From NCBI GenBank assembly GCA_947184155.2, contig CAMXCT020002669.1, positions 319,501-383,500 on the forward strand: 64,000 nucleotides of DNA, written 5' to 3'. The notes beneath the pieces are model-generated. The model was given only the letters and a program-made list of their open reading frames with translations. It searched no databases and had not been told where the DNA came from. A program made the translations under genes and the position numbers. This stretch comes from Cladocopium goreaui (lineage: Eukaryota; Sar; Dinophyceae; Suessiales; Symbiodiniaceae). Below are positions 7,180-32,969 of the stretch, piece by piece. The first letter of the stretch is position 1; each line of letters opens with the position of its first letter.

Positions 7180-7488
7180 GATATGATATGTATATATATA
7201 TATATTACATATATATTATATATATATGTATATCATATATATCTCTATATATTATATGATATTAAATTATATATATATATATTATGAATTATATATTATA
7301 TATTATATATTATACATTAAATATTATATATTATTTATTATATATTGTATATTATATATCATATATCATATATCATACATATATAAATATATTATATTGT
7401 ATATTATACATATATATATACAAATATTATACATAAATATGTATATATATATATATACATACATAAATACATACATACATACATACAT

Positions 7489-7524
<36 letters not shown>

Positions 7525-8855
7525 ACAGACAGACAGACAGACAGACAGACACACATACATACACACATACATACACACGTACGTACATACGTACATACGT
7601 ACATATGTACATGCATACATACACAGACATACACAGACATACACATACATATACACATACATATACACATACATATACACATACATATACACATACATTT
7701 ACACATACATAGAAATACATACACATACATACATACACATACATACACATACAGACATACACATACATAGGCATACATAGACATACATAGACATACATAG
7801 ATATACATAGACATACATACACATACATAGACATACATACACATACATAGAAATACATAGACATGCATAGACATACATAGACATACATAGACCTACATAG
7901 ACATACATAAACATACAAAGACATACATAGACATACATAGACATACATATACATACATAGACATACATAGACATACATAGACATACATAGACATACACAG
8001 ACATACATAGACATACAAAGACATACATAGACATACATATACATACATATACATACATACTCAATAACATACTATACATGGCCTACCACATACCTAGACA
8101 TAGCGTATCATACTATACAGAATACTAGACAATACACAACCTACATAAAGTACATACACAGACATACATAGACATACAAAGACATACATAGACATACATA
8201 TACATACATATACATACATATACATACATACACATACATAGACATACATATACATACATATACATACATAGACATACACAGACATACATAGACATACAAA
8301 GACATACATAGACATACATATACATACATATACATACATATACATACATACACATACATATACATACATATACATACATATACATACATACACATACATA
8401 GACATACATATACATACATATACATACATATACATACATATACATACATATACATACATATACATACATATACATACATATACACACATATACATACATA
8501 TACATATACACATACACATAGACATATACATATACACATATATACACACATACACACATACACGCAGACACACATACATACAGACATACAGACATACAGA
8601 CATACAGACATACAGACATACAGACATACAGACAGACATACAGACAGACATACAGACAGACACACACACACATATATATACATATTTATACACATACACA
8701 TAGATATAATATAGACATAGACATAGACATAGACATACACATAGACATAGACATCCACATCCACATCCACATTCACATCCACATTCACATCAACATCCAC
8801 ATCCACATCTCCATCCATCCATCCATCCATCCATCCATCCATCCATCCATATCTG
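7180..8855. repeat. Compound microsatellite array
   Basis: Successive blocks of different simple repeats: (TA)n to about 7480; ATAC to 7490; GGCA about eight times at 7491-7523; GACA about seven times; ACGTAC/ACATAC; a long decanucleotide ACATACATAG/ACATACATAT at about 7620-8510; ACAGACAT near 8580-8660; ACATAG and CCACAT hexamers at 8700-8805; and CCAT at 8805-8850. Six-frame reading gives long Tyr/Val/Met/Cys-only ORFs, an artefact of the repeat. A non-repetitive gap lies at 8060-8140. Confidence 0.95.
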
Positions 8856-8869
8856 TTGTATTTGTACTT

Positions 8870-9340
8870 GTCCCAGGTTGCGAGGTCCGCCCGGCGAGGG
8901 CGAGGAGGAGACTGAGTCGCTCCTGGCCAAGGTGCTGGGTGGAAGTTGTGGACACTTTTGGACAGACAAGTTCTGATTGTATGATGAACAAACGAATCTA
9001 ACGAATCTAACTTTAGTTTTTGTTTGGAAAAAATAGTACGTTTTGATATTTTTGATCCGTTGATAAGTTGCTCACCTATAGATTTACTGATCCGAGGGTT
9101 CATGATTTTTCGATATATAAACTATTCAGTAAAGAAGTTATAACTTCACTGATCCAATTCTTGGAACAGGGATGACAATTTTGCCAAAAATTCACCACAA
9201 TTCGGATGGCACACATATAGAAGAACCTTTGCGCCGGCAGGAGCAAGCGGAAGATGCCAAGGCACCATATTCCAAGGCCGAAGAAGTGCTGCTGTTTTCC
9301 AAGCTGGTGGTGGGGCCTCATGGTACATCAGGGATCTATA
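8870..9340. other. No supported gene
   Basis: Unique-looking sequence between the microsatellite and the retroelement flank. A 97-codon ORF from 9172 runs into the element's left repeat and has no recognisable domain. Confidence 0.5.
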
Positions 9341-9402: not shown

Positions 9403-9468
9403 TGTCCTTTCGCCCCCGGGGATAAACATGAATTCACGATTTCTTTTAATGTAGCTCTGGCTTAAGGG
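9403..9468 (+). repeat. Split direct repeat A1
   Basis: 66 bp starting TGTCCTTTCGCCCCCGGGG and ending CTGGCTTAAGGG. It matches A2 at 15,198-15,263 except for one base (TTAATG versus TTGATG). It marks the left end of the element. Confidence 0.9.
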
Positions 9469-9515
9469 ATTTGGATGTGGGGACACGCAGACAGTTGTCC
9501 CTGCTCCGTCTGTAA

Positions 9516-10145
9516 GAGCCTCCCTCGCATTTTCCACCTGATTGCGAGCGGGCTTCTTCAACTACGAGTTCTTCCAGCTCCCGGGTTCCTGGAGGTACCG
9601 GTCTTTTTGACGAAGAAGACCGGCTGCGGCGCATCTGGAAGAAACACCCAGGCGCCCTCACAGCGGGGGCCATCAGAGAGGCCCGTCAAGGGCTCATGAC
9701 TCAGGCTGGAACGCTTTGGAACATCAGTGAGGCTGAGTTACCGCCCCTCTTCACGCAATATTGCAGACAGCAAGTCGTTGCGCCGTTGCCGGTAAGTCCA
9801 GCCCTGACTCAGGAACTTCTTACGCTGGCGCAGTGCTTGGGCCACTTGCTGATGGGCAAGATTGCGGCTGGCGCTGACATCCTTTGTCAAAGGATCAAAT
9901 GCGTTGAAAGCCTTGCAAGGGGCTACCATTGGAGCGTGGGACGGCAACTGGAGTTGATCCATAGTGAGCAGAACTCCATCGCTGAAGGTTCCGAAGCTTT
10001 GAGTGCAGCAAGACGCGCAAAGGAAGAGGAGAAGTTGAGGTCTCTGGTCAGCAAAGGAGGAGCTGGAAAGAGTGGCAGCAACTATGAAGGTGGAAAAGGT
10101 CGCAAAGGAAAAGATAAGTATACGCCAAAGGGATCCAAAGGGTAG
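9516..10145 (+). CDS. Gag-like ORF of the YR retrotransposon
   Basis: The frame is open from 9516; the first ATG is at 9696, giving 149 residues. The frame upstream of that ATG also looks coding (LFDEEDRLRRIWKKHPGAL), so the true start may lie upstream through splicing or a non-AUG start. The last 45 residues are a basic Lys/Gly tail (GGKGRKGKDKYTPKGSKG), suiting an RNA-binding nucleocapsid; no CCHC knuckle is present. The frame ends at 10,145 and overlaps the open part of the polymerase frame (from 10,118), so a -1 shift could join them. Assignment rests on position and tail, not on a recognised domain. Confidence 0.6.
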   Translation, partial: EPPSHFPPDCERASSTTSSSSSRVPGGTGLFDEEDRLRRIWKKHPGALTAGAIREARQGLMTQAGTLWNISEAELPPLFTQYCRQQVVAPLPVSPALTQELLTLAQCLGHLLMGKIAAGADILCQRIKCVESLARGYHWSVGRQLELIHSEQNSIAEGSEALSAARRAKEEEKLRSLVSKGGAGKSGSNYEGGKGRKGKDKYTPKGSKG

Positions 10146-10150
10146 ATCCG

Positions 10151-12376
10151 ATGAGGGAGGAAAAGGTCGTGGCGGTGAAAATCGAACCCGTGATGATGGC
10201 AAGCCCTCGGGAAAAAAGAACTGAAAGAGGGGAGGAGCACCTCCCAAGGACTACCCATGGCGAAAGAAGAAAGCGACCTAGTGCGGCTTCGTTGGGCGAA
10301 GGTGTGGCATGTGGCAAGCGGCGAGAGGAGAAATGTGATGCGGCCGGCAAAGAAATCCTTGTGGCAGAGGATGCATGGCGCGAAGTGGCAGAGAGTATCA
10401 CCCTCAGTGAGATCGATGCCCTGATCTCTCAAGCTCGAAGTAGCGCTGAGGAAGCACAGGGGAGTCAGTTCGAGCCGACTTGGACGGACTCCCAACCTTT
10501 GAGTTTGAATTCGAGTGGTGCATGCCAGGGGAGTGGTAGCAGTAAGGAATCCCACTCCCAAGCCCCGCTGCTGCGAGCACGAGCGCTAGTGCGGGCTTTT
10601 TTGGACGGTCCGGAAAGGACTTGTAGCCTTGAAGGTCTTGGTGGTCTCTTAAAGGATGTCCTGATTATGTTTGAAAGTTTTCCTTGTTGCAGGCCCCGGC
10701 CCACTACAGGACGGAAAGACATCTTTCCACTACCTGTGTCAGAACATCCAGAGACCTCCAAGCGCGGCCAATTTCTTCCTTTGGTGGCAGCCAGTCTCAA
10801 CAGTATGTATGGCGTAGATCACTCAACTGAGGCACGCCCGTCCTCTTTACGGGTCATGAAAAGGCTTGCTGCTGTGGTGGAGCACTCTGAGATTTTGGCT
10901 GAACCCCTTCCTGAAGTTTCTTTCTCAACCCTTTTTACTACCAAAGGTGTGGATTACCAAGGTGATGAGATTCGGGTTGCTCGTAAAGTTGTCTGGGAAT
11001 CTATTGAGGCGTCTTTACCGTCTCAGGTAGGTACTTTGGATATTCGGGATTTTTGTCATTCAGGGGTCCTTCACTATATCAACCACTTTGAGGAGTTCCT
11101 TATCCCTGCGGCTGACCAGATGGTAGGAAAACCACCCCGGGTTTTTGTGGATGATGATGAATGGGGCCGAGTGGCAAATGGCCTTCTTGACAGGGGTATC
11201 TGTGTTGCCCGGAAGCTTTCTGATCTTCACTTCATTGATGGCTCCCCCCTGGTTAATGGATTGTTTGCAGTCTCCAAAGATGAATTTCATGGGTCTGTCG
11301 AACTATGTCGTTTGATCATGAATTTGAAGCCTGTGAATGCCCTTGCTCGTCCTCTGGAAGGGGATACCTGCACTTTACCTATGGTAACCCAATTGGGTAG
11401 CCTCTATTTGGAAGAAGGGGAACTCTTGTCCATTTCTTCTGAGGATCTCCGTTGCTACTTCTACTTGTTCAGCATTCCGGAGGCCTGGCAAAAGTACATG
11501 GGCTTTGGACGGGCATTGCCGCTCGGTCTAGTACCTGAGGGGGGGCACCGTGATGAAGTTTGGGTTCTTTGTAGTAGGGTCTTGCCTATGGGGTTTCTAA
11601 ACAGTGTTGGCATTGCCCAGCACATCCATCGAAACGTGGTCAGAAAGGCAATGGGGAGTTTGTACCCCCCTCTGGGTGGAGAACATGAACTTAGACGTGA
11701 TCGCCTATTCAGTCAACTGCCGACCCTTTATAGAGTTTATCTAGATAACTTTGACGAGCTTCGCAAAACTGACCGCCGACTCCATGAGCTCATTGGGGGC
11801 CATACTTCTGAGAGCGTGGCACGGTTACGGGAGGCCTATGCTGAGGCAGGCCTCCCAACTCACCCGAAGAAGACAGTGCGGGAAGTGTCAAGTGCGGAGG
11901 TCCAGGGTGCCTGGATCAATGGGGAGCAAGGTACCATGAGTGCGAAGCCTTCAAAGATTAGCCGCTATGTGAAGCTGGCCCTTGAACTGGTTGGCCGTGG
12001 GGTGGCTAGCCAGAAGGAGCTTCAAGTGGTCGGTGGCGGGATGGTTTACATTGCGATGTTCAAAAGACCGCTGCTGGGAGCCCTAAACCATTTGTGGCGG
12101 GCCATAGTGGCTCTGGAAGGCCTCCCAAGGGATCGTCAGTATCCCCTACCAAGGGAGGCCATGGTGGAGCTTGTGAGGTTTGTAGGACTGGTCCCACTGG
12201 CCTTTAGTAGTTTCAGGTCTGACTTTGACGACATGGTGACCGCCAGTGACGCTTCATCTTCAGGGGGGGTTTCTGCGCCTCTCGAGGGCTCACACCCTAT
12301 GGCGCGGCAGCAGCTTCAAGCTATGTTCGCGGTGATCTTCCAGAGTGTGATGACACCTGCCAGGTGTTGTCGATAG
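10151..12376 (+). CDS. Reverse transcriptase with N-terminal part of RNase H
   Basis: A 741-residue frame. The first 330 residues are unassigned, with a basic start. RT motifs follow: fingers with DRGICVARKL and FAVSKDEF, then RLIMNLKPVN near residue 386; motif A SSEDLRCYFYLF with Asp432; motif B LPMGFLNS from residue 478; motif C as YLDN at 530-533 instead of the usual YxDD; then thumb/connection. The C-terminus enters RNase H: TASDASSSGG with the first catalytic Asp at residue 700. The frame then leaves the coding path after seven G at 12,263-12,269. The -1 frame from there reads FCASRGLTPYG and runs straight into the methyltransferase. Residues after about 704 of this ORF are therefore probably not the native protein. 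Confidence 0.85.
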   Translation: MREEKVVAVKIEPVMMASPREKRTERGEEHLPRTTHGERRKRPSAASLGEGVACGKRREEKCDAAGKEILVAEDAWREVAESITLSEIDALISQARSSAEEAQGSQFEPTWTDSQPLSLNSSGACQGSGSSKESHSQAPLLRARALVRAFLDGPERTCSLEGLGGLLKDVLIMFESFPCCRPRPTTGRKDIFPLPVSEHPETSKRGQFLPLVAASLNSMYGVDHSTEARPSSLRVMKRLAAVVEHSEILAEPLPEVSFSTLFTTKGVDYQGDEIRVARKVVWESIEASLPSQVGTLDIRDFCHSGVLHYINHFEEFLIPAADQMVGKPPRVFVDDDEWGRVANGLLDRGICVARKLSDLHFIDGSPLVNGLFAVSKDEFHGSVELCRLIMNLKPVNALARPLEGDTCTLPMVTQLGSLYLEEGELLSISSEDLRCYFYLFSIPEAWQKYMGFGRALPLGLVPEGGHRDEVWVLCSRVLPMGFLNSVGIAQHIHRNVVRKAMGSLYPPLGGEHELRRDRLFSQLPTLYRVYLDNFDELRKTDRRLHELIGGHTSESVARLREAYAEAGLPTHPKKTVREVSSAEVQGAWINGEQGTMSAKPSKISRYVKLALELVGRGVASQKELQVVGGGMVYIAMFKRPLLGALNHLWRAIVALEGLPRDRQYPLPREAMVELVRFVGLVPLAFSSFRSDFDDMVTASDASSSGGVSAPLEGSHPMARQQLQAMFAVIFQSVMTPARCCR

Positions 12377-13953
12377 GGCTCTTTGATGGCATTGCCGCAC
12401 TCCGGGTTGCTCTGGATGTGCTCCAGGCACCAGTGGCAGGACACGTGTCTGTGGAATGCAATGGGGCAGCACAACGAGTAGTTGAGGCCAATTTTCCGGG
12501 ATCACTGCTTGTTGAAGGAGTCGAGCAAGTCGATGAGGCAATGGTCACTGAGTGGAGCCTGCGCTTCGGCATGGTAGGCCTAATGCTGGTGGGCGCTGGG
12601 CCCCCCTGTCAGGGGGTTTCAGGCTTGAACGCCGACAGGCGTGGTGCCTTGAGAGACGCCAGAAGCTCTTTGTTTTGCCATGTCTCCAAGATTGTAACAT
12701 TGTGCAAAAGGAAGTTCCCTTGGGCCCAGGTAAGGGCCTTTGTGGAAAACGTTGCGTCAATGGATCGGGTAGACTGCGAGGTGATGAATGAAAGCTATGA
12801 CATGTGCCCCTGGTATGTTGATTCAGCAGGTATCTCCTTGTGTCACCGGCCAAGGCTCTACTGGTTTGACTGGGAAGTTCAAGAAGGCGTAGGTGTGGAA
12901 CTATGGCATGGGAGTGATGGTAGACTCCCAATTCAAGGAGAGATCCGCTTCATGGCCGAAGTGGAGAGCCACGCTTTTTTCCCGCGAGGTGTTCGTATGG
13001 GAGGCGACAGTCTCCCAACTTTCACTACTTCAAGGCCGTGCAGCGTGCCAATGAGAAAGCCAGCTGGGTTGAAGGATTGCCTGGCTCATGAGGTTCAGAG
13101 GTGGAAATCTGATAGCCACCGGTTTCCGCCCTATCAATACAAGGACAAGCACTGCATTGACGAGCAAGGGACGCTGAGGCCTCCCAAGGTGTCTGAGCGT
13201 GAGGCTATCATGGGTTTCCCCATTGGGTACACCGTGCAATGCATGAAGAAGTCAGACCATGGCTCTAGCGCTCACAACGACTGCAGGCTGACCCTTATTG
13301 GAAACACCTGGCATGTGGGGGTTGTAGCCTGGCTTTTAAGCCAGCTGTTGGCTCCCCTTGGTCTTATCATGCCAGTTTCAGTTCAGGAGTTGGTGGAGCG
13401 CCTCACCCCGGGAAAAAAATGCTCATCTTCAAGCTTTATTGCTGAGGCCGCCTGTGGAACATACCACCCAACCTTTCCTCCCAGTCGTCTCCTGGTTCAA
13501 ATGCTGGCCGGGCTTTCGTCGTTGAAAGGGGAGGATATTCTGGTGCAACAAGTCACTGAAATGCCGCTGAGGTATCATCGACTGCGACAGAGCATCCCAG
13601 GTAAGCTGTGGCGCTGGCGCATCATATCTGGATGGCGCGGGGTGGGAAATCCAGAACACATCAATGTGTTGGAGGCACGGGCGACCTTTACCACATTGAA
13701 GTGGAGAGCTCAACAACTTGGCCAATTAGACTGCCGGTGTGTACATCTAGTGGATAGCATTGTGGTGCTTCATTGTTTGACTCGAGGACGCTCCTCCTCA
13801 AGAAAGCTGAGACGGACGGTTATGCGGATTGGATCTCTTCTTCTGGCGACAGGCATCCAGCCAGTTTATGGCTATATTGATACTCATCAGAACCCAGCCG
13901 ACAAACCGTCGCGCTGGGCCGTCAAGAAAAGATGGCTAAAAAGGCGTCGGTGA
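12250..13953 (+). CDS. C5-cytosine DNA methyltransferase inserted in RNase H (pol continuation)
   Basis: The frame is open from 12,250; the first GTG is at 12,364 and residues are numbered from it. Methyltransferase motifs: I GLFDGIA (5-11, S-adenosylmethionine site); IV GAGPPCQG with catalytic Cys82; VI VENV with Glu128; VIII HRPRLYWF at 161-168; X GNTWHVGVVAWLL from 313. Size and motif order fit a full catalytic domain of about 330 residues with no regulatory domains. After it, RNase H resumes: NVLEARA (Glu437), HLVDS (Asp464) and NPADKPSRW (Asp513), completing the catalytic set begun at Asp700 of the RT ORF. The domain therefore lies between the first strand and the helix of RNase H. Likely action: de novo CpG methylation, possibly of the element's own copies (inference). 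DNMT3-like or bacterial-type origin was not resolved. Confidence 0.88.
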   Translation, partial: RFIFRGGFCASRGLTPYGAAAASSYVRGDLPECDDTCQVLSIGLFDGIAALRVALDVLQAPVAGHVSVECNGAAQRVVEANFPGSLLVEGVEQVDEAMVTEWSLRFGMVGLMLVGAGPPCQGVSGLNADRRGALRDARSSLFCHVSKIVTLCKRKFPWAQVRAFVENVASMDRVDCEVMNESYDMCPWYVDSAGISLCHRPRLYWFDWEVQEGVGVELWHGSDGRLPIQGEIRFMAEVESHAFFPRGVRMGGDSLPTFTTSRPCSVPMRKPAGLKDCLAHEVQRWKSDSHRFPPYQYKDKHCIDEQGTLRPPKVSEREAIMGFPIGYTVQCMKKSDHGSSAHNDCRLTLIGNTWHVGVVAWLLSQLLAPLGLIMPVSVQELVERLTPGKKCSSSSFIAEAACGTYHPTFPPSRLLVQMLAGLSSLKGEDILVQQVTEMPLRYHRLRQSIPGKLWRWRIISGWRGVGNPEHINVLEARATFTTLKWRAQQLGQLDCRCVHLVDSIVVLHCLTRGRSSSRKLRRTVMRIGSLLLATGIQPVYGYIDTHQNPADKPSRWAVKKRWLKRRR

Positions 13954-15104
13954 GTACTAGATGCCCGTCCAAAGAAGAGAGAAAGAAGATCCGCAAAAAT
14001 TTGGGAAGTCTCAAACAACTTACCGTCCAGCCAAAGACAAAGGAGCGCTATCAAACTGGCCTTACCCTCTTCTTCAAGTTCTTGGCATGGGAGGGTTTGT
14101 CTCTCCCAGAAAAACGCGAGGAAATGGATGGGCTTGTGAGTGACTATTTGGAGCACCTGTGGTCCGAAGGAGAAGGCCGTGCCACAGCCAGTAACTTTCT
14201 GGCGGCTTTGCAGGACTCCCAGCCCAAGTTAAAGGGAGCTCTACCTGGGGCGTGGCGACTCATGCGCACTTGGAGCACTCAAGAAGTCCCCCAGCGTGCA
14301 CCCCCATTGAGTGAAACAGTGCTGTTGGCCATGGTGGGATGGTCCATTCTGCACGAACATTTGGTAGGCTTTCATGGGCTGCTACGAACAGGGGAACTTC
14401 TTGGACTTCAAGCCTGGCAGATACATATGACTGGCAAGAACTCTCCGGCCATGGTTAGTCTTGGCTTGACCAAGTCTGGCAAAAGACAAGGGGCTGCAGA
14501 GAGCATCACCATAACTGAGCGCAGTGTGCTCCATATTTTGTGGCTTTGGAAACAGTCAGTAGATCAGCATGAATTTTTAACCTCTAAGCCGCATGCCTGG
14601 AGGAATTTATTCTCTGATTGTTTAGTTGCCCTTAAATTGGAAACCTCAGGTTTCCGACCTTACTCTTTAAGGCGAGGTGGTGCAACTTTCCTGTTTACCA
14701 AATGTGGCTCCTTAGATAGAGTCTTGCTTGCTGGTCGATGGACCGCCATTAAAACGGCCAGGATTTACCTCAACTCAGGGTTAGCCATGCTGGCTGACAT
14801 TCAAATTCCTCGTGCACTTTTAACTCCGTTTCATCCTGTTTTTACCAAATGGCTGAATTCCTTGCCATGGCTTGAGCACACTCCCTTCGGTCATAGGACG
14901 GGGGGACGTGGAAAGGCTATGAAGCTTCATGCTCGAAAAGCCCAAAAAGCGGTGGGGGGCTCTGTTTTTTTCCGTTTCTACCAAAGATCCGTGTGTCTAG
15001 GGCTTGGGGGTTTCCCCGGTGTGGCGGGGTCCCTGAGGGACACTGGGGGGTATTCTTCATTCTGGGTGTGGCCGAATGGAGAATACTACGCCCTCAAGTG
15101 GTAA
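13932..15104 (+). CDS. Tyrosine recombinase of the retrotransposon
   Basis: 390 residues starting at ATG 13,932, overlapping the previous frame by 22 bp. Residues about 25-130 resemble the SAM-like DNA-binding domain of tyrosine recombinases (KTKERYQTGLTLFFKFL). The catalytic part shows Arg152 in GLLRTGE, Arg247 in YSLRRGGAT (the usual His three residues earlier is Tyr), Trp270 in AGRW in place of the second His, and nucleophile Tyr279 in ARIYLN. This R..R..W..Y pattern suits DIRS-like or Crypton-like enzymes. Its role would be to insert the circular cDNA by recombination. The last 65 residues overlap repeat B1 and may be dispensable. Confidence 0.87.
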   Translation: MAKKASVSTRCPSKEERKKIRKNLGSLKQLTVQPKTKERYQTGLTLFFKFLAWEGLSLPEKREEMDGLVSDYLEHLWSEGEGRATASNFLAALQDSQPKLKGALPGAWRLMRTWSTQEVPQRAPPLSETVLLAMVGWSILHEHLVGFHGLLRTGELLGLQAWQIHMTGKNSPAMVSLGLTKSGKRQGAAESITITERSVLHILWLWKQSVDQHEFLTSKPHAWRNLFSDCLVALKLETSGFRPYSLRRGGATFLFTKCGSLDRVLLAGRWTAIKTARIYLNSGLAMLADIQIPRALLTPFHPVFTKWLNSLPWLEHTPFGHRTGGRGKAMKLHARKAQKAVGGSVFFRFYQRSVCLGLGGFPGVAGSLRDTGGYSSFWVWPNGEYYALKW

Positions 15105-15197
15105 GTTTACCGCTTTTGGATCTTTTCTCCGTTTACTTTATTTTATTTGAGAAAGCTTGGGCTGCAACGCTCAAAAAGATCGAGTGAAGTGAATGTT
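14910..15197 (+). repeat. Split direct repeat B1
   Basis: 288 bp from GGAAAGGCTATGAAGCTTCA to GAGTGAAGTGAATGTT. It matches B2 with a handful of substitutions and is followed directly by A2. It overlaps the end of the recombinase ORF. Confidence 0.9.
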
Positions 15198-15263
15198 TGT
15201 CCTTTCGCCCCCGGGGATAAACATGAATTCACGATTTCTTTTGATGTAGCTCTGGCTTAAGGG
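15198..15263 (+). repeat. Split direct repeat A2
   Basis: 66 bp matching A1 with one difference. It is sandwiched between B1 and B2, the diagnostic arrangement for split-direct-repeat YR retroelements. Confidence 0.9.
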
Positions 15264-15281
15264 CCCAACCCCCCCCCAGAA

Positions 15282-15570
15282 GGAAAGGCTATGAAGCTTC
15301 ATGCTCGAAAAGCCCAAAAAGCGGGGGGGGGGCTCTGTTTTTTTCCGTTTCTACCAAAGATCCGTGTGTCTAGGGCTTGGGGGTTTCCCCGGTGTGGGGG
15401 AGTCCCTGAGGGACACTGGGGGGTATTCTTCATTCTGGGTGTGGCCGAATGGAGAATACTACGCCCTCAAGTGGTAAGTTTACCGCTTTTGGATCTTTTC
15501 TCCGCTTACTTTATTTTATTTGAGAAAGCTTTGTCTGCAACGCTCAAAAAGATCGAGTGAAGTGAATGTT
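15282..15570 (+). repeat. Split direct repeat B2 (right end of element)
   Basis: 289 bp, near-identical to B1. It ends AGTGAATGTT directly before a (TA)n stretch. Small ORFs inside it are shadows of the B1/recombinase sequence. Confidence 0.9.
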
Positions 15571-15584
15571 TATATATATATATA

Positions 15585-22585: not shown

Positions 22586-23034
22586 GAAACTTTTTTTTAG
22601 AGGTAATGATGCTCATTGGGTAACACTTTTGGATTAATTGTTGATGCAACTCCAACTTCCTTTTGGATGGGGATGAACTGGTGGTCAGATGTTCTGACTG
22701 TGGTCAAGAAGTGTTCTTCTGCACACACAGACCGGCAGATTTTCTGTGAAAGGTGCCGGCACAGAGCCAAAGTGCAGGGTGTGGTGGCTTAGCACTTTGT
22801 GGTGTGCTGTAGGGGCCCGGGAACGTTCGCTAGCAGCTGTAGAGCTTGCCGTTGTTTGGACATGCTGGCCAGAAAACAAAGACTACAAGGCAGGCATTGT
22901 ATCTGAAGTATGGCTCAAGAGATGTACATCACTCAGTCTCGTGTCTCCCAAACATATCATAACGTATCCAAAAATCGTTGTCCCCTCTTCAGGGGCCATT
23001 TTGGGAGACACCGGAGACACCTAGTCGTTAGGCC

Positions 23035-24333
23035 ATGGCCCGGTCCAGCCGGCCCAAGGATCAGCTTCCCTTATCCGAGCTCAGATGGCTTTTCAGATCC
23101 TCACGGGCAGGAGGGGAGCAGATGTCAGAGGCTACCCTGGAGGTGGCGCAAAGTCTGGAGCAGATGGGATGCTATGGATCGATGGAGCAACGGGTCCTCG
23201 AGGGCATGAGGTGTCAGCGGCTGGAAGTCTATGCCTTCCATCGAAATGCAGCTGCGGCATGTTGCACTCGACGATTTCAATGGCAGAGAGCCTTGGAACT
23301 CTTGGGACGAACGCTGAAACGGCGCAACATGAGCGCGGCGGTGAATGCATTGAAGCAGGCAGGCAGATGGCACTCAGCCTTCGGATTGCTGGCATCATTT
23401 TCTGATCGAAAGATTGAAGCTGATGCCAGTGGATGCAATGCTTTGGCCAGTGCATTAGAACGATTCGAATCAAAGTCCTGGCAGCAGCTCCTGTCATGGC
23501 TTCAAGGCCTTCCAACGCTGGATGAGGACATGACCTTCCACTCGCTGTTGCGGGTGTCATCCTGGAGCCTGTCCCTGGCAGTCTGGAGGTCTTTGAGCCA
23601 AGCAGCCTCCAAGGCCACAGATTTTTCGGACTGCATCGGACTCAACGCCCTGATGTCTCCATTGGCCCGAGCAGGGCGGTGGCAGTACGCCTTGGGCGTC
23701 TTTCAGTTGTTCAAAGCTCTAGGGGTAAGGTGTGATGGTGCAAGTTATTCCACCGCAATGGATGCCTCCAAAGATAGTTGGTCAAGCGCTCTCGAGCTGC
23801 TTTTGCGAATGAAGTTTCACACACTTGCTCCATGCCGCTTTCAATACACAGCAGTTTGTGATGTTTGTACTGCGGCAGAAAACTGGGAGAGGGCATTGGA
23901 TGTGTTCGATCTGTCAAAGGCTTTGGACACATGGGATGTTCTTCTTGGAACTTCTGGTCTTGCAGCTATCTCCAAAAGCAGCAAATGGATGTCTGCTATG
24001 TGGACATTTGCCACACTGCCCCAAGTGTCTCTGCAACCAAATACCATCACCAGCACCTCAGCCTTGAGTGCTTGTGAGAGAGGCAGACAGTGGCAGATGG
24101 CCCTGCTTTCCATGAACGAAATGTTGGAGAAACGCCTGGTCAATGAGCTGTCCTTCAGTAGCACCATGCACGCTTGTGAGAAGTTTGGCCAATGGAAGCT
24201 TCTCGCATGCCTCCTTGCAACGATGACAGTGCCATGGAGCTCAAAGGAGCAGCTTTTGAGTTGTCGTTGGCCTAAGGATACCTTGTTGGTTCTTCCACCT
24301 TTTCCATCCTTTTCCCCTTGTTGGTTACTGTAA
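23035..24333 (+). CDS. Pentatricopeptide repeat (PPR) protein, intronless
   Basis: 432 residues. ATG 23,035 has an in-frame TAG two codons upstream, so this start is firm for this frame. From about residue 60 on, degenerate 33-38-residue helical repeats: AVNALKQAGRWHSAFGLLAS, GLNALMSPLARAGRWQYALG, ALSACERGRQWQMALLSMNE and MHACEKFGQWKLLACLLATM. The ACE..RQWQMAL form is typical of dinoflagellate PPR proteins. Family role: sequence-specific RNA binding, mostly organelle transcript processing, editing or translation. No DYW or SMR domain. The N-terminus is basic (MARSSRPKD), with no clear transit peptide. No introns in 1.3 kb, unlike its neighbours, fitting a retroposed origin. Confidence 0.85.
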   Translation: MARSSRPKDQLPLSELRWLFRSSRAGGEQMSEATLEVAQSLEQMGCYGSMEQRVLEGMRCQRLEVYAFHRNAAAACCTRRFQWQRALELLGRTLKRRNMSAAVNALKQAGRWHSAFGLLASFSDRKIEADASGCNALASALERFESKSWQQLLSWLQGLPTLDEDMTFHSLLRVSSWSLSLAVWRSLSQAASKATDFSDCIGLNALMSPLARAGRWQYALGVFQLFKALGVRCDGASYSTAMDASKDSWSSALELLLRMKFHTLAPCRFQYTAVCDVCTAAENWERALDVFDLSKALDTWDVLLGTSGLAAISKSSKWMSAMWTFATLPQVSLQPNTITSTSALSACERGRQWQMALLSMNEMLEKRLVNELSFSSTMHACEKFGQWKLLACLLATMTVPWSSKEQLLSCRWPKDTLLVLPPFPSFSPCWLL

Positions 24334-31664: not shown

Positions 31665-32340
31665 ATTCATTGAGTCGGGAAGCATATCATAAACAAATAT
31701 GGGGATGCAGTGGGGATATATTATGGGATATATTGGTCGGCCATATGTTTTGGGATGGTCATCCCCACATTCTATATTTTCATAGGGACTTTGCTGTAGC
31801 CATTAAGGTTTGTCTGAAAATGAGGTACCCCCAAATCTCACAGTTTGTCATAATTTCCCTACGTTCCCTCTCAAAATTGCTGTTTCATGCTGGTAAATTC
31901 CAGACCCACACATCATGTCAACTTGGCTATAATATGATAATATATATATATATATAATTATATATATATATACACACATACTGTTGTATCCCATATGAGT
32001 CCCACATTCATTGCGGAATCATCGTCTGTTTCAAGCGTTGATCCAACACTGAGGCCTTGAAGCTTTTGGCCGAGGTGATGCCTCCCACGATGTCGCGCGC
32101 AACTTGGTGGTGGCAGGCGCTTCTTCTTGGTCGTTTCCTCATGCCATGGGGGAGAATATGTTTAAATCCCAGTGTTATCTTGATGTTTGGATAAATGATA
32201 GTGGGATAAATGGTTGATAAGTAAATAATGTTTTAACAACATTACTTTAGTGGGTTGTAATATGACGTTTGTTTAAACGAGTCCCAAGAAAAAACGATAG
32301 TCATTATCCATGATCATTCCACAATCGTTATCCATGATCA
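31665..32340. other. No supported gene
   Basis: Includes an introner-like fragment near 31,808 (GTCTGAAAATGAGGTACCCC). A GC-rich stretch at 32,040-32,120 could be an exon on either strand, unresolved. Confidence 0.4.
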
Positions 32341-32344
32341 TGAT

Positions 32345-32471
32345 CAGGATCATATCATCATGATGATGATGATGATAATAATAATGAATGATGATGATGA
32401 CGATGATGACGACGACGACGACGATGACGACGTCGACGTCGATGATGAGGATGATGATGAGGATGATGATG

Positions 32472-32505
<34 letters not shown>

Positions 32506-32670
32506 CGATGACGATGACGATGACGACAACGAAAACGATGACAATGACGATGATGACGATGACGATGACGATGATGACGATGACGATGACGATGATGACG
32601 ATGACGATGACGATGATGACGATGACGATGACGACGATGATGATGATGATGACGACGAGGAAGAAGAAGA

Positions 32671-32704
<34 letters not shown>

Positions 32705-32790
32705 GGTGGTGATGGTCATGGTCATGGTGATGGTCATGGTGATGCTGGTGCTGATGCTGGTGCTGATGCTGGTGCTGGTGCTGGTGACGA
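32345..32790. repeat. GAT/GAC trinucleotide and GATGAC array
   Basis: About 350 bp of GAT and GAC triplets, then GGT and GGTGAT/GCTGGT hexamers. The plus frame gives an almost pure poly-Asp then Gly/His/Ala repeat ORF (32,360-32,968, 202 codons). The minus frame gives poly-His or poly-Ile. Most likely a microsatellite, not a gene. Confidence 0.85.
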
Positions 32791-32969
32791 TGACGACAAT
32801 AATTTCTTTGTGCCCGGAAGGGTCCAAATGCATCAAGCTGCGACCCGCAGCAAATCACTGATTCAGTGGAGGTGTGGCAAGCCTTTTCAGCACCGCCGGC
32901 TGAATTCACTGGCTGTGATGACGTCAATGAACTTTTCTTGCCAAATTCCTAAGCAAACAACATATTAGG

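Follow-up and report, generated by a model that had tools for sequence, protein, structure and literature searches.

The 64,000-nucleotide stretch of Cladocopium goreaui DNA analyzed here (contig CAMXCT020002669.1, positions 319,501 to 383,500; hereafter, the window) contains a tyrosine-recombinase retrotransposon of around 6.2 kb at positions 9403–15571. The element is bounded by split direct repeats in the order A-coding-B-A-B. Its Pol region presents, in this order, a reverse transcriptase (RT), two strands of RNase H, a C5-cytosine methyltransferase (MTase) of DNMT3 type, a linker and the remaining RNase H. An initial annotation had proposed that the MTase is nested in a single RNase H domain. 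The motifs quoted in its support, both for RNase H and for the C5-MTase, are all present in the sequence, and the nesting itself agrees with structural models of two relatives and with conservation across the family. The Pol features are as follows:

10118–12376, forward strand: Pol frame 1, containing the RT and ending in RNase H strand 1 with its Asp; 82% identity to residues 1–559 of the relative P0123.
12224–12291, forward strand: RNase H part 1, comprising strands 1 and 2, which in the window copy fall in two different frames; from strands 97–106 and 110–119 of the P0003 model, by gapless alignment.
12250–13953, forward strand: Pol frame 2, containing the MTase and RNase H part 2, with a stop codon; 83% identity to residues 559–1120 of P0123.
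12263–12269, forward strand: run of seven Gs where the open frame changes, seen in the sequence; the homology segments abut at 12265–12268.
About 12340–13371, forward strand: DNMT3-type C5-cytosine MTase domain; catalytic Cys codon at 12607–12609, Glu codon of the ENV motif at 12745–12747.
13609–13911, forward strand: RNase H part 2, from strand 3 to the last short helix; from the P0003 model mapped to P0001, and from conservation.

The boundaries between RNase H and MTase in the window were mapped from an AlphaFold model of P0003 (predicted local distance difference test, pLDDT, 88.8; predicted template modelling score, pTM, 0.85). In this model, strands 97–106 and 110–119 precede the MTase, and strand 559–568 and helix 576–594 follow it. 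A model of the Pol of P0123, with 1120 residues (pLDDT 88.8, pTM 0.87), has the RT, strands 544–554 and 558–567 and then the MTase (residues 585–927, approximately) on its N-terminal side; after the MTase come strand 1007–1016, helix 1024–1042, strand 1048–1054, several helices and strand 1090–1095. With strand and helix names assigned in this analysis, the order b1-b2-b3-aA-b4-aB-aD-b5-aE of type 1 RNase H is found in the models of both relatives, the last helix being short. The two RNase H halves are thus predicted to form one fold, with the MTase occupying the loop between strands 2 and 3. No second, complete RNase H domain appears in the P0123 model, whose secondary structure shows a single RNase H pattern split by the MTase. 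Hence, the description of the MTase as nested rather than appended stands, while its placement between the first strand and the Glu helix was imprecise, as the P0003 model locates it in the strand 2–3 loop.

The D-E-D-D order of type 1 RNase H and its usual spacing are also found if the inserted part is left aside. From D105 to E580 of P0003 there are around 36 residues when positions 120–558, which hold the MTase with its two linkers, are skipped; in well-known RNases H, this distance is 35–41 residues. In the window, the first Asp (motif SDAS) is encoded by codon 12248–12250, within the RT frame 10118–12376, and codon checks placed the remaining residues at 13672–13674 (Glu), 13753–13755 (Asp) and 13900–13902 (Asp). 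The first Asp does lie at the end of the RT frame, as initially annotated; however, the interval then given for the nested structure, 12250–13953, only touches the Asp codon with its edge and is read in the other frame.

Several observations weigh against the RNase H assignment. The Pfam family RNase_H was detected in 1 of 19 C-terminal pieces, with an E-value of 0.036; no RNase H family was listed for 38 Pol relatives, and the matches to PDB sequences included no RNase H. Foldseek matched viral models that bear the name RNase H, with a probability of 1.00 but E-values of about 0.01–0.03. Matches in the fold searches against the PDB were taken up by C5 methyltransferases, so these searches do not speak for or against the RNase H part on its own. 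As profiles hardly recognize this part, its assignment relies on the predicted fold, on the order and spacing of residues and on the Foldseek matches. The nesting may itself account for the absence of RNase H from domain scans of these elements.

Two queries were used to examine the family. Pol frame 2 retrieved 640 proteins at E ≤ 1e-3, and at least 95% of the query was covered by 109 of the best 120, which were listed. The RT frame alone, a query without bias towards MTase carriers, retrieved 137 proteins, and the 120 listed include the protein of the window itself. The first Asp motif was present in 104 of these 120 proteins and absent in 16. Fifteen proteins end within 150 residues of the first Asp, and 89 reach at least 150 residues past it; an MTase motif is found there in 89/89. 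The Glu motif was not matched by a regular expression in 28 of the 89.

Proteins from both searches were also aligned pairwise to P0123 (237 proteins, with P0001, P0122 and P0123 excluded, about half of them from the MTase-containing query) and scored at six catalytic positions: the four RNase H carboxylates, the MTase Cys and the MTase Glu. The six positions were reached by 162/237 proteins, while 75/237 fell short of the full set. All six residues were kept in 158/162, and a single residue was changed in P0011, P0050, P0078 and P0120. Among proteins of the RT search, 59/118 reached the six positions and 59/59 kept them all. Counted among the proteins aligned at each position, the RNase H carboxylates were conserved in 205/206 (first Asp), 181/181 (Glu), 179/180 (second Asp) and 176/177 (third Asp), and the MTase residues in 205/208 (Cys) and 203/203 (Glu). 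No protein of the 237 had the first Asp and the RNase H Glu aligned but the MTase Cys position unaligned. Close relatives devoid of MTase were not found among the 237, and more distant ones may lie beyond the 120 proteins listed for each search. Of the 160 proteins with all three motifs in order, 153 share a spacing of exactly 118 residues from SDAS to GPPCQ. Rows P0163 and P0233 of alignment A1 differ from the expected residues at each of the last three RNase H positions, which we take as probable frame errors.

As judged from these alignments, the nesting is common to a large family and not peculiar to the window copy, and the fixed spacing and the conservation of catalytic residues place the arrangement beyond chance. 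In the window copy, the change of frame falls close to the edge of the inserted domain, a feature that might point to a chance nested insertion or to an assembly artefact at this locus. Such a reading has virtually no probability left: the 640 homologues, the coverage of the query by the matches listed and the existence of continuous open reading frames (ORFs) in P0123, P0124 and P0129 refute it. Weak profile recognition, in turn, would fit an inactive RNase H, left over after capture of the MTase had split it, whose function host RNase H would supply. We regard this possibility as very improbable, as all four carboxylates are conserved among the proteins aligned there and the models of one fold are confident.

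Pol is read in one continuous ORF in P0123 (82% identity), P0124 and P0129. DNMT and RT thus belong to one Pol, which is continuous in P0123 and others and is split by one frame change in the window. When P0123 was used as a tblastn query, residues 1–559 matched 10589–12268 and residues 559–1110 matched 12265–13920, so the two segments join without a missing stretch. Pol frame 1 of the window had no Pfam family of its own; RVT_1 was detected at E ≤ 1 in 6 of 38 Pol relatives. The frame change (12263–12269) falls in a homopolymer adjacent to the hairpin of the RNase H active site. We do not favor a programmed frameshift at these Gs because relatives, including P0123 with its 82% identity, cross the same junction in one frame. 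The change may be due to mutation, to assembly error or to programmed slippage in this subfamily.

The remaining parts of the element, outside 12250–13953, are two pairs of repeats, a gag-like ORF and a recombinase ORF:

9403–9468, forward strand: terminal repeat A1; 98% identity to 15198–15263.
9516–10145, forward strand: gag-like ORF of 209 amino acids, apparently 5'-incomplete; 9591–10082 corresponds to residues 276–441 of P0131 at 63%.
13881–15104, forward strand: tyrosine recombinase ORF, with a likely ATG at 13932 and overlapping the end of Pol; from homologues and alignment A4.
14910–15198, forward strand: terminal repeat B1; 95–98% identity to 15282–15571.
15198–15263, forward strand: terminal repeat A2; 98% identity to A1.
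15282–15571, forward strand: terminal repeat B2, the right end of the element; 95–98% identity to B1.

The recombinase has 915 homologues at E ≤ 1e-3. In alignment A4, made of 32 sequences (the window copy plus 31 of the 120 matches listed), residues R169, R264, R265, W287 and Y296 are invariant; the R, RR and Y residues are catalytic in this family. In the window, codon 14385–14387 encodes the first catalytic Arg and codon 14766–14768 the Tyr. The Pfam family Phage_integrase was detected in 21/32 aligned recombinases and a SAM-like N-terminal domain in 18/32 (E ≤ 1). The window recombinase yielded no Phage_integrase and reached no curated cut-off, with a sub-threshold SAM-like match only, and it had no match among PDB sequences. 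No Pfam family was detected in the gag-like ORF either.

The window copy looks defective because, besides the frame change, its recombinase lacks seven residues at around 14360, upstream of the first catalytic Arg, and part of gag was not found. All seven residues are present in 30 of the 31 aligned relatives, P0244 lacking one. With tblastn at E 1e-3, residues 1–275 of P0131, a gag-RT protein, matched no part of the window. Neither the frame change nor this other damage had been noticed in the initial annotation. Repeat A1 directly precedes the middle of the gag-like region (9403–9591).

Some relatives from both Pol searches carry Skav names, which we take to denote Symbiodinium (Fugacium) kawagutii, a species of the paper in which SymbioDIRS elements were presented. 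According to the main text of that paper (de Mendoza et al. 2018, PMC5890265), SymbioDIRS-Dnmt3 elements combine DNMT3 and RT in Pol, encode the tyrosine recombinase separately, follow the repeat order A-coding-B-A-B and occur in two structures with different domain orders. The element of the window shares the DNMT3-type MTase in Pol, the recombinase ORF and the A-B-A-B repeats, and is a DIRS-like retrotransposon with Ngaro-type repeats, of the SymbioDIRS-Dnmt3 kind. The view that C5 enzymes are new to DIRS-like elements is not supported, as such a combination was already published; PMC6338049 and PMC12344493 restate the 2018 finding. The difference concerns the place of the MTase, which lies here in the strand 2–3 loop of RNase H. 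The main text of PMC5890265 (figures and supplement aside) does not state the position of the DNMT relative to RNase H: the words nested, inserted and split are absent from it, and its mentions of RNase H are the label of a domain, part of a tree legend and a remark of general nature. No description of an MTase nested in RNase H was found in other papers among the matches listed in a literature search by titles and abstract openings. The kind of element is thus published, while its MTase's place inside RNase H is apparently unstated in the text, although it may perhaps be visible in the published Figure 1e.

Other known systems offer partial likenesses. With Ngaro and DIRS elements, as described in the text of PMC3783388, the element shares gag, RT, RNase H and a tyrosine recombinase, with A-pol-B-A-B repeats as in Ngaro. 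In contrast, DIRS carries a Dam-like N6-adenine methylase in pol, and the enzyme found here is a C5 enzyme within RNase H. Pfam scans of the four ORFs of the window, of 38 Pol relatives and of the recombinases did not list a Dam family, an absence that is not proof. KnitGypsy-Dnmt3 of Klebsormidium nitens also has a DNMT3-related domain in a retrotransposon Pol; it is, however, a Gypsy element, and its acquisition was independent according to PMC5890265. Whole domains inside an RNase H-like fold are found in PARN (R3H) and in the Hermes transposase (a helical domain), whereas the inserted domain is here a second enzyme. Apart from RNases H2 and H3, where helices separate strands 2 and 3, such folds relatively seldom have insertions between their first three strands, according to PMC3985635.

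The MTase belongs to the Dnmt3 class. In profile searches, DNMT3A/3B ranked first (8e-19). The DRM2 type came next (about 2e-12 to 2e-13), and HhaI, DNMT2 and DNMT1 lay far below; DNMT3A/3B also ranked first in the fold search. With patterns taken from the MTase part, a viral source found no backing (20 pattern matches in viral contigs, no relative), nor did a prokaryotic one (two weak matches in genome contigs, in the MTase part only). An imperfect inverted repeat of 28 nucleotides (12354–12381 and 13290–13317) lies near both borders of the MTase. As a scar of capture it looks chance-like: the best score of the element was 18, against 14–26 in 20 base shuffles.

A de novo MTase in retrotransposons is puzzling because methylation usually silences such elements. 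The reading that we favor, and consider reasonably probable, is that of a nested Pol family in which both enzymes act in one molecule and the element methylates its own complementary DNA (cDNA) before integration. The RT would make cDNA and RNase H would remove the template RNA; the tethered MTase would then methylate CpGs of the double-stranded cDNA of the element, and the tyrosine recombinase would insert methylated DNA that resembles the CG-methylated host genome. Nesting would hold the MTase beside the newly made duplex, and the MTase could then hardly be lost with RNase H left intact. We infer that RNase H and MTase are both active in the same molecule, and that methylation of the cDNA before integration is their most likely function. 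Methylation by the element of its own cDNA or of new insertions had been suggested in the initial annotation; the idea of cDNA methylation, already proposed in 2018, is plausible, and isolated SymbioDIRS DNMT domains perform de novo CG methylation in yeast. In addition, purifying selection is similar on the DNMT and the RT of SymbioDIRS elements (main text of PMC5890265). The exactness of the nesting suggests that copying and methylation of cDNA may be physically coupled. We put forward more tentatively, as it leans on predicted models and seems less probable than not, that Pol is a single machine: the MTase in the RNase H hairpin would methylate the duplex leaving the polymerase during RNA removal, and the cDNA would be marked as self before integration. 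The conserved place inside RNase H makes self-methylation testable, as the idea predicts a shared substrate path for both activities and also predicts that loss of the MTase by simple truncation would cost RNase H.

Other data do not favor self-methylation. The observed/expected ratio of CG was 0.597 in the whole element, compared with 0.598 in the downstream flank and 0.620 in the upstream flank. With equal ratios in the element and the downstream flank, the sequence shows no clear sign of extra self-methylation. Lower values in the RT (0.509) and MTase (0.542) stretches come without a significance test. Such a trace may not necessarily be expected in a host methylated nearly everywhere. To our knowledge, no activity of the nested form has been described. 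DIRS elements without DNMT exist and expand similarly, and the CG comparison made in 2018 found no significant difference between them and SymbioDIRS (PMC5890265, main text).

The main rival explanation, which we find rather unlikely, keeps the same nesting but makes host DNA, host chromatin or the element's chromosomal copies, instead of cDNA, the target of the MTase, which would thereby shape the highly CG-methylated host genome. An enzyme that is DNMT3-like, that is, of the de novo type, would suit this role, CG methylation is found nearly everywhere in the host group and the authors of PMC5890265 raise possible effects on the host methylome in its main text. However, most copies are reported there to be silent, and a domain at a fixed position inside Pol, beside RT and RNase H, suits the products of replication. 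A less probable alternative is that the insertion is kept mainly for structure, with an MTase that binds the duplex or the hybrid and helps RT and RNase H, and with methylation of little importance. The fixed spacing and the defined place in the predicted fold are compatible with such a role; the conservation of the MTase Cys and Glu is not what one would expect from it, nor is the activity of isolated domains in yeast (PMC5890265).

Minor observations were made elsewhere in the window. No RNA family was found in its 64 kb with Rfam at the gathering score. A long simple-repeat stretch (7187–9000) with repetitive ORFs on both strands lies just upstream of the element, and another one (32261–32968) codes for long Asp runs. 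A PPR-repeat protein of 433 amino acids (PPR_2, 2.5e-9) is encoded by a single ORF at 23032–24333.

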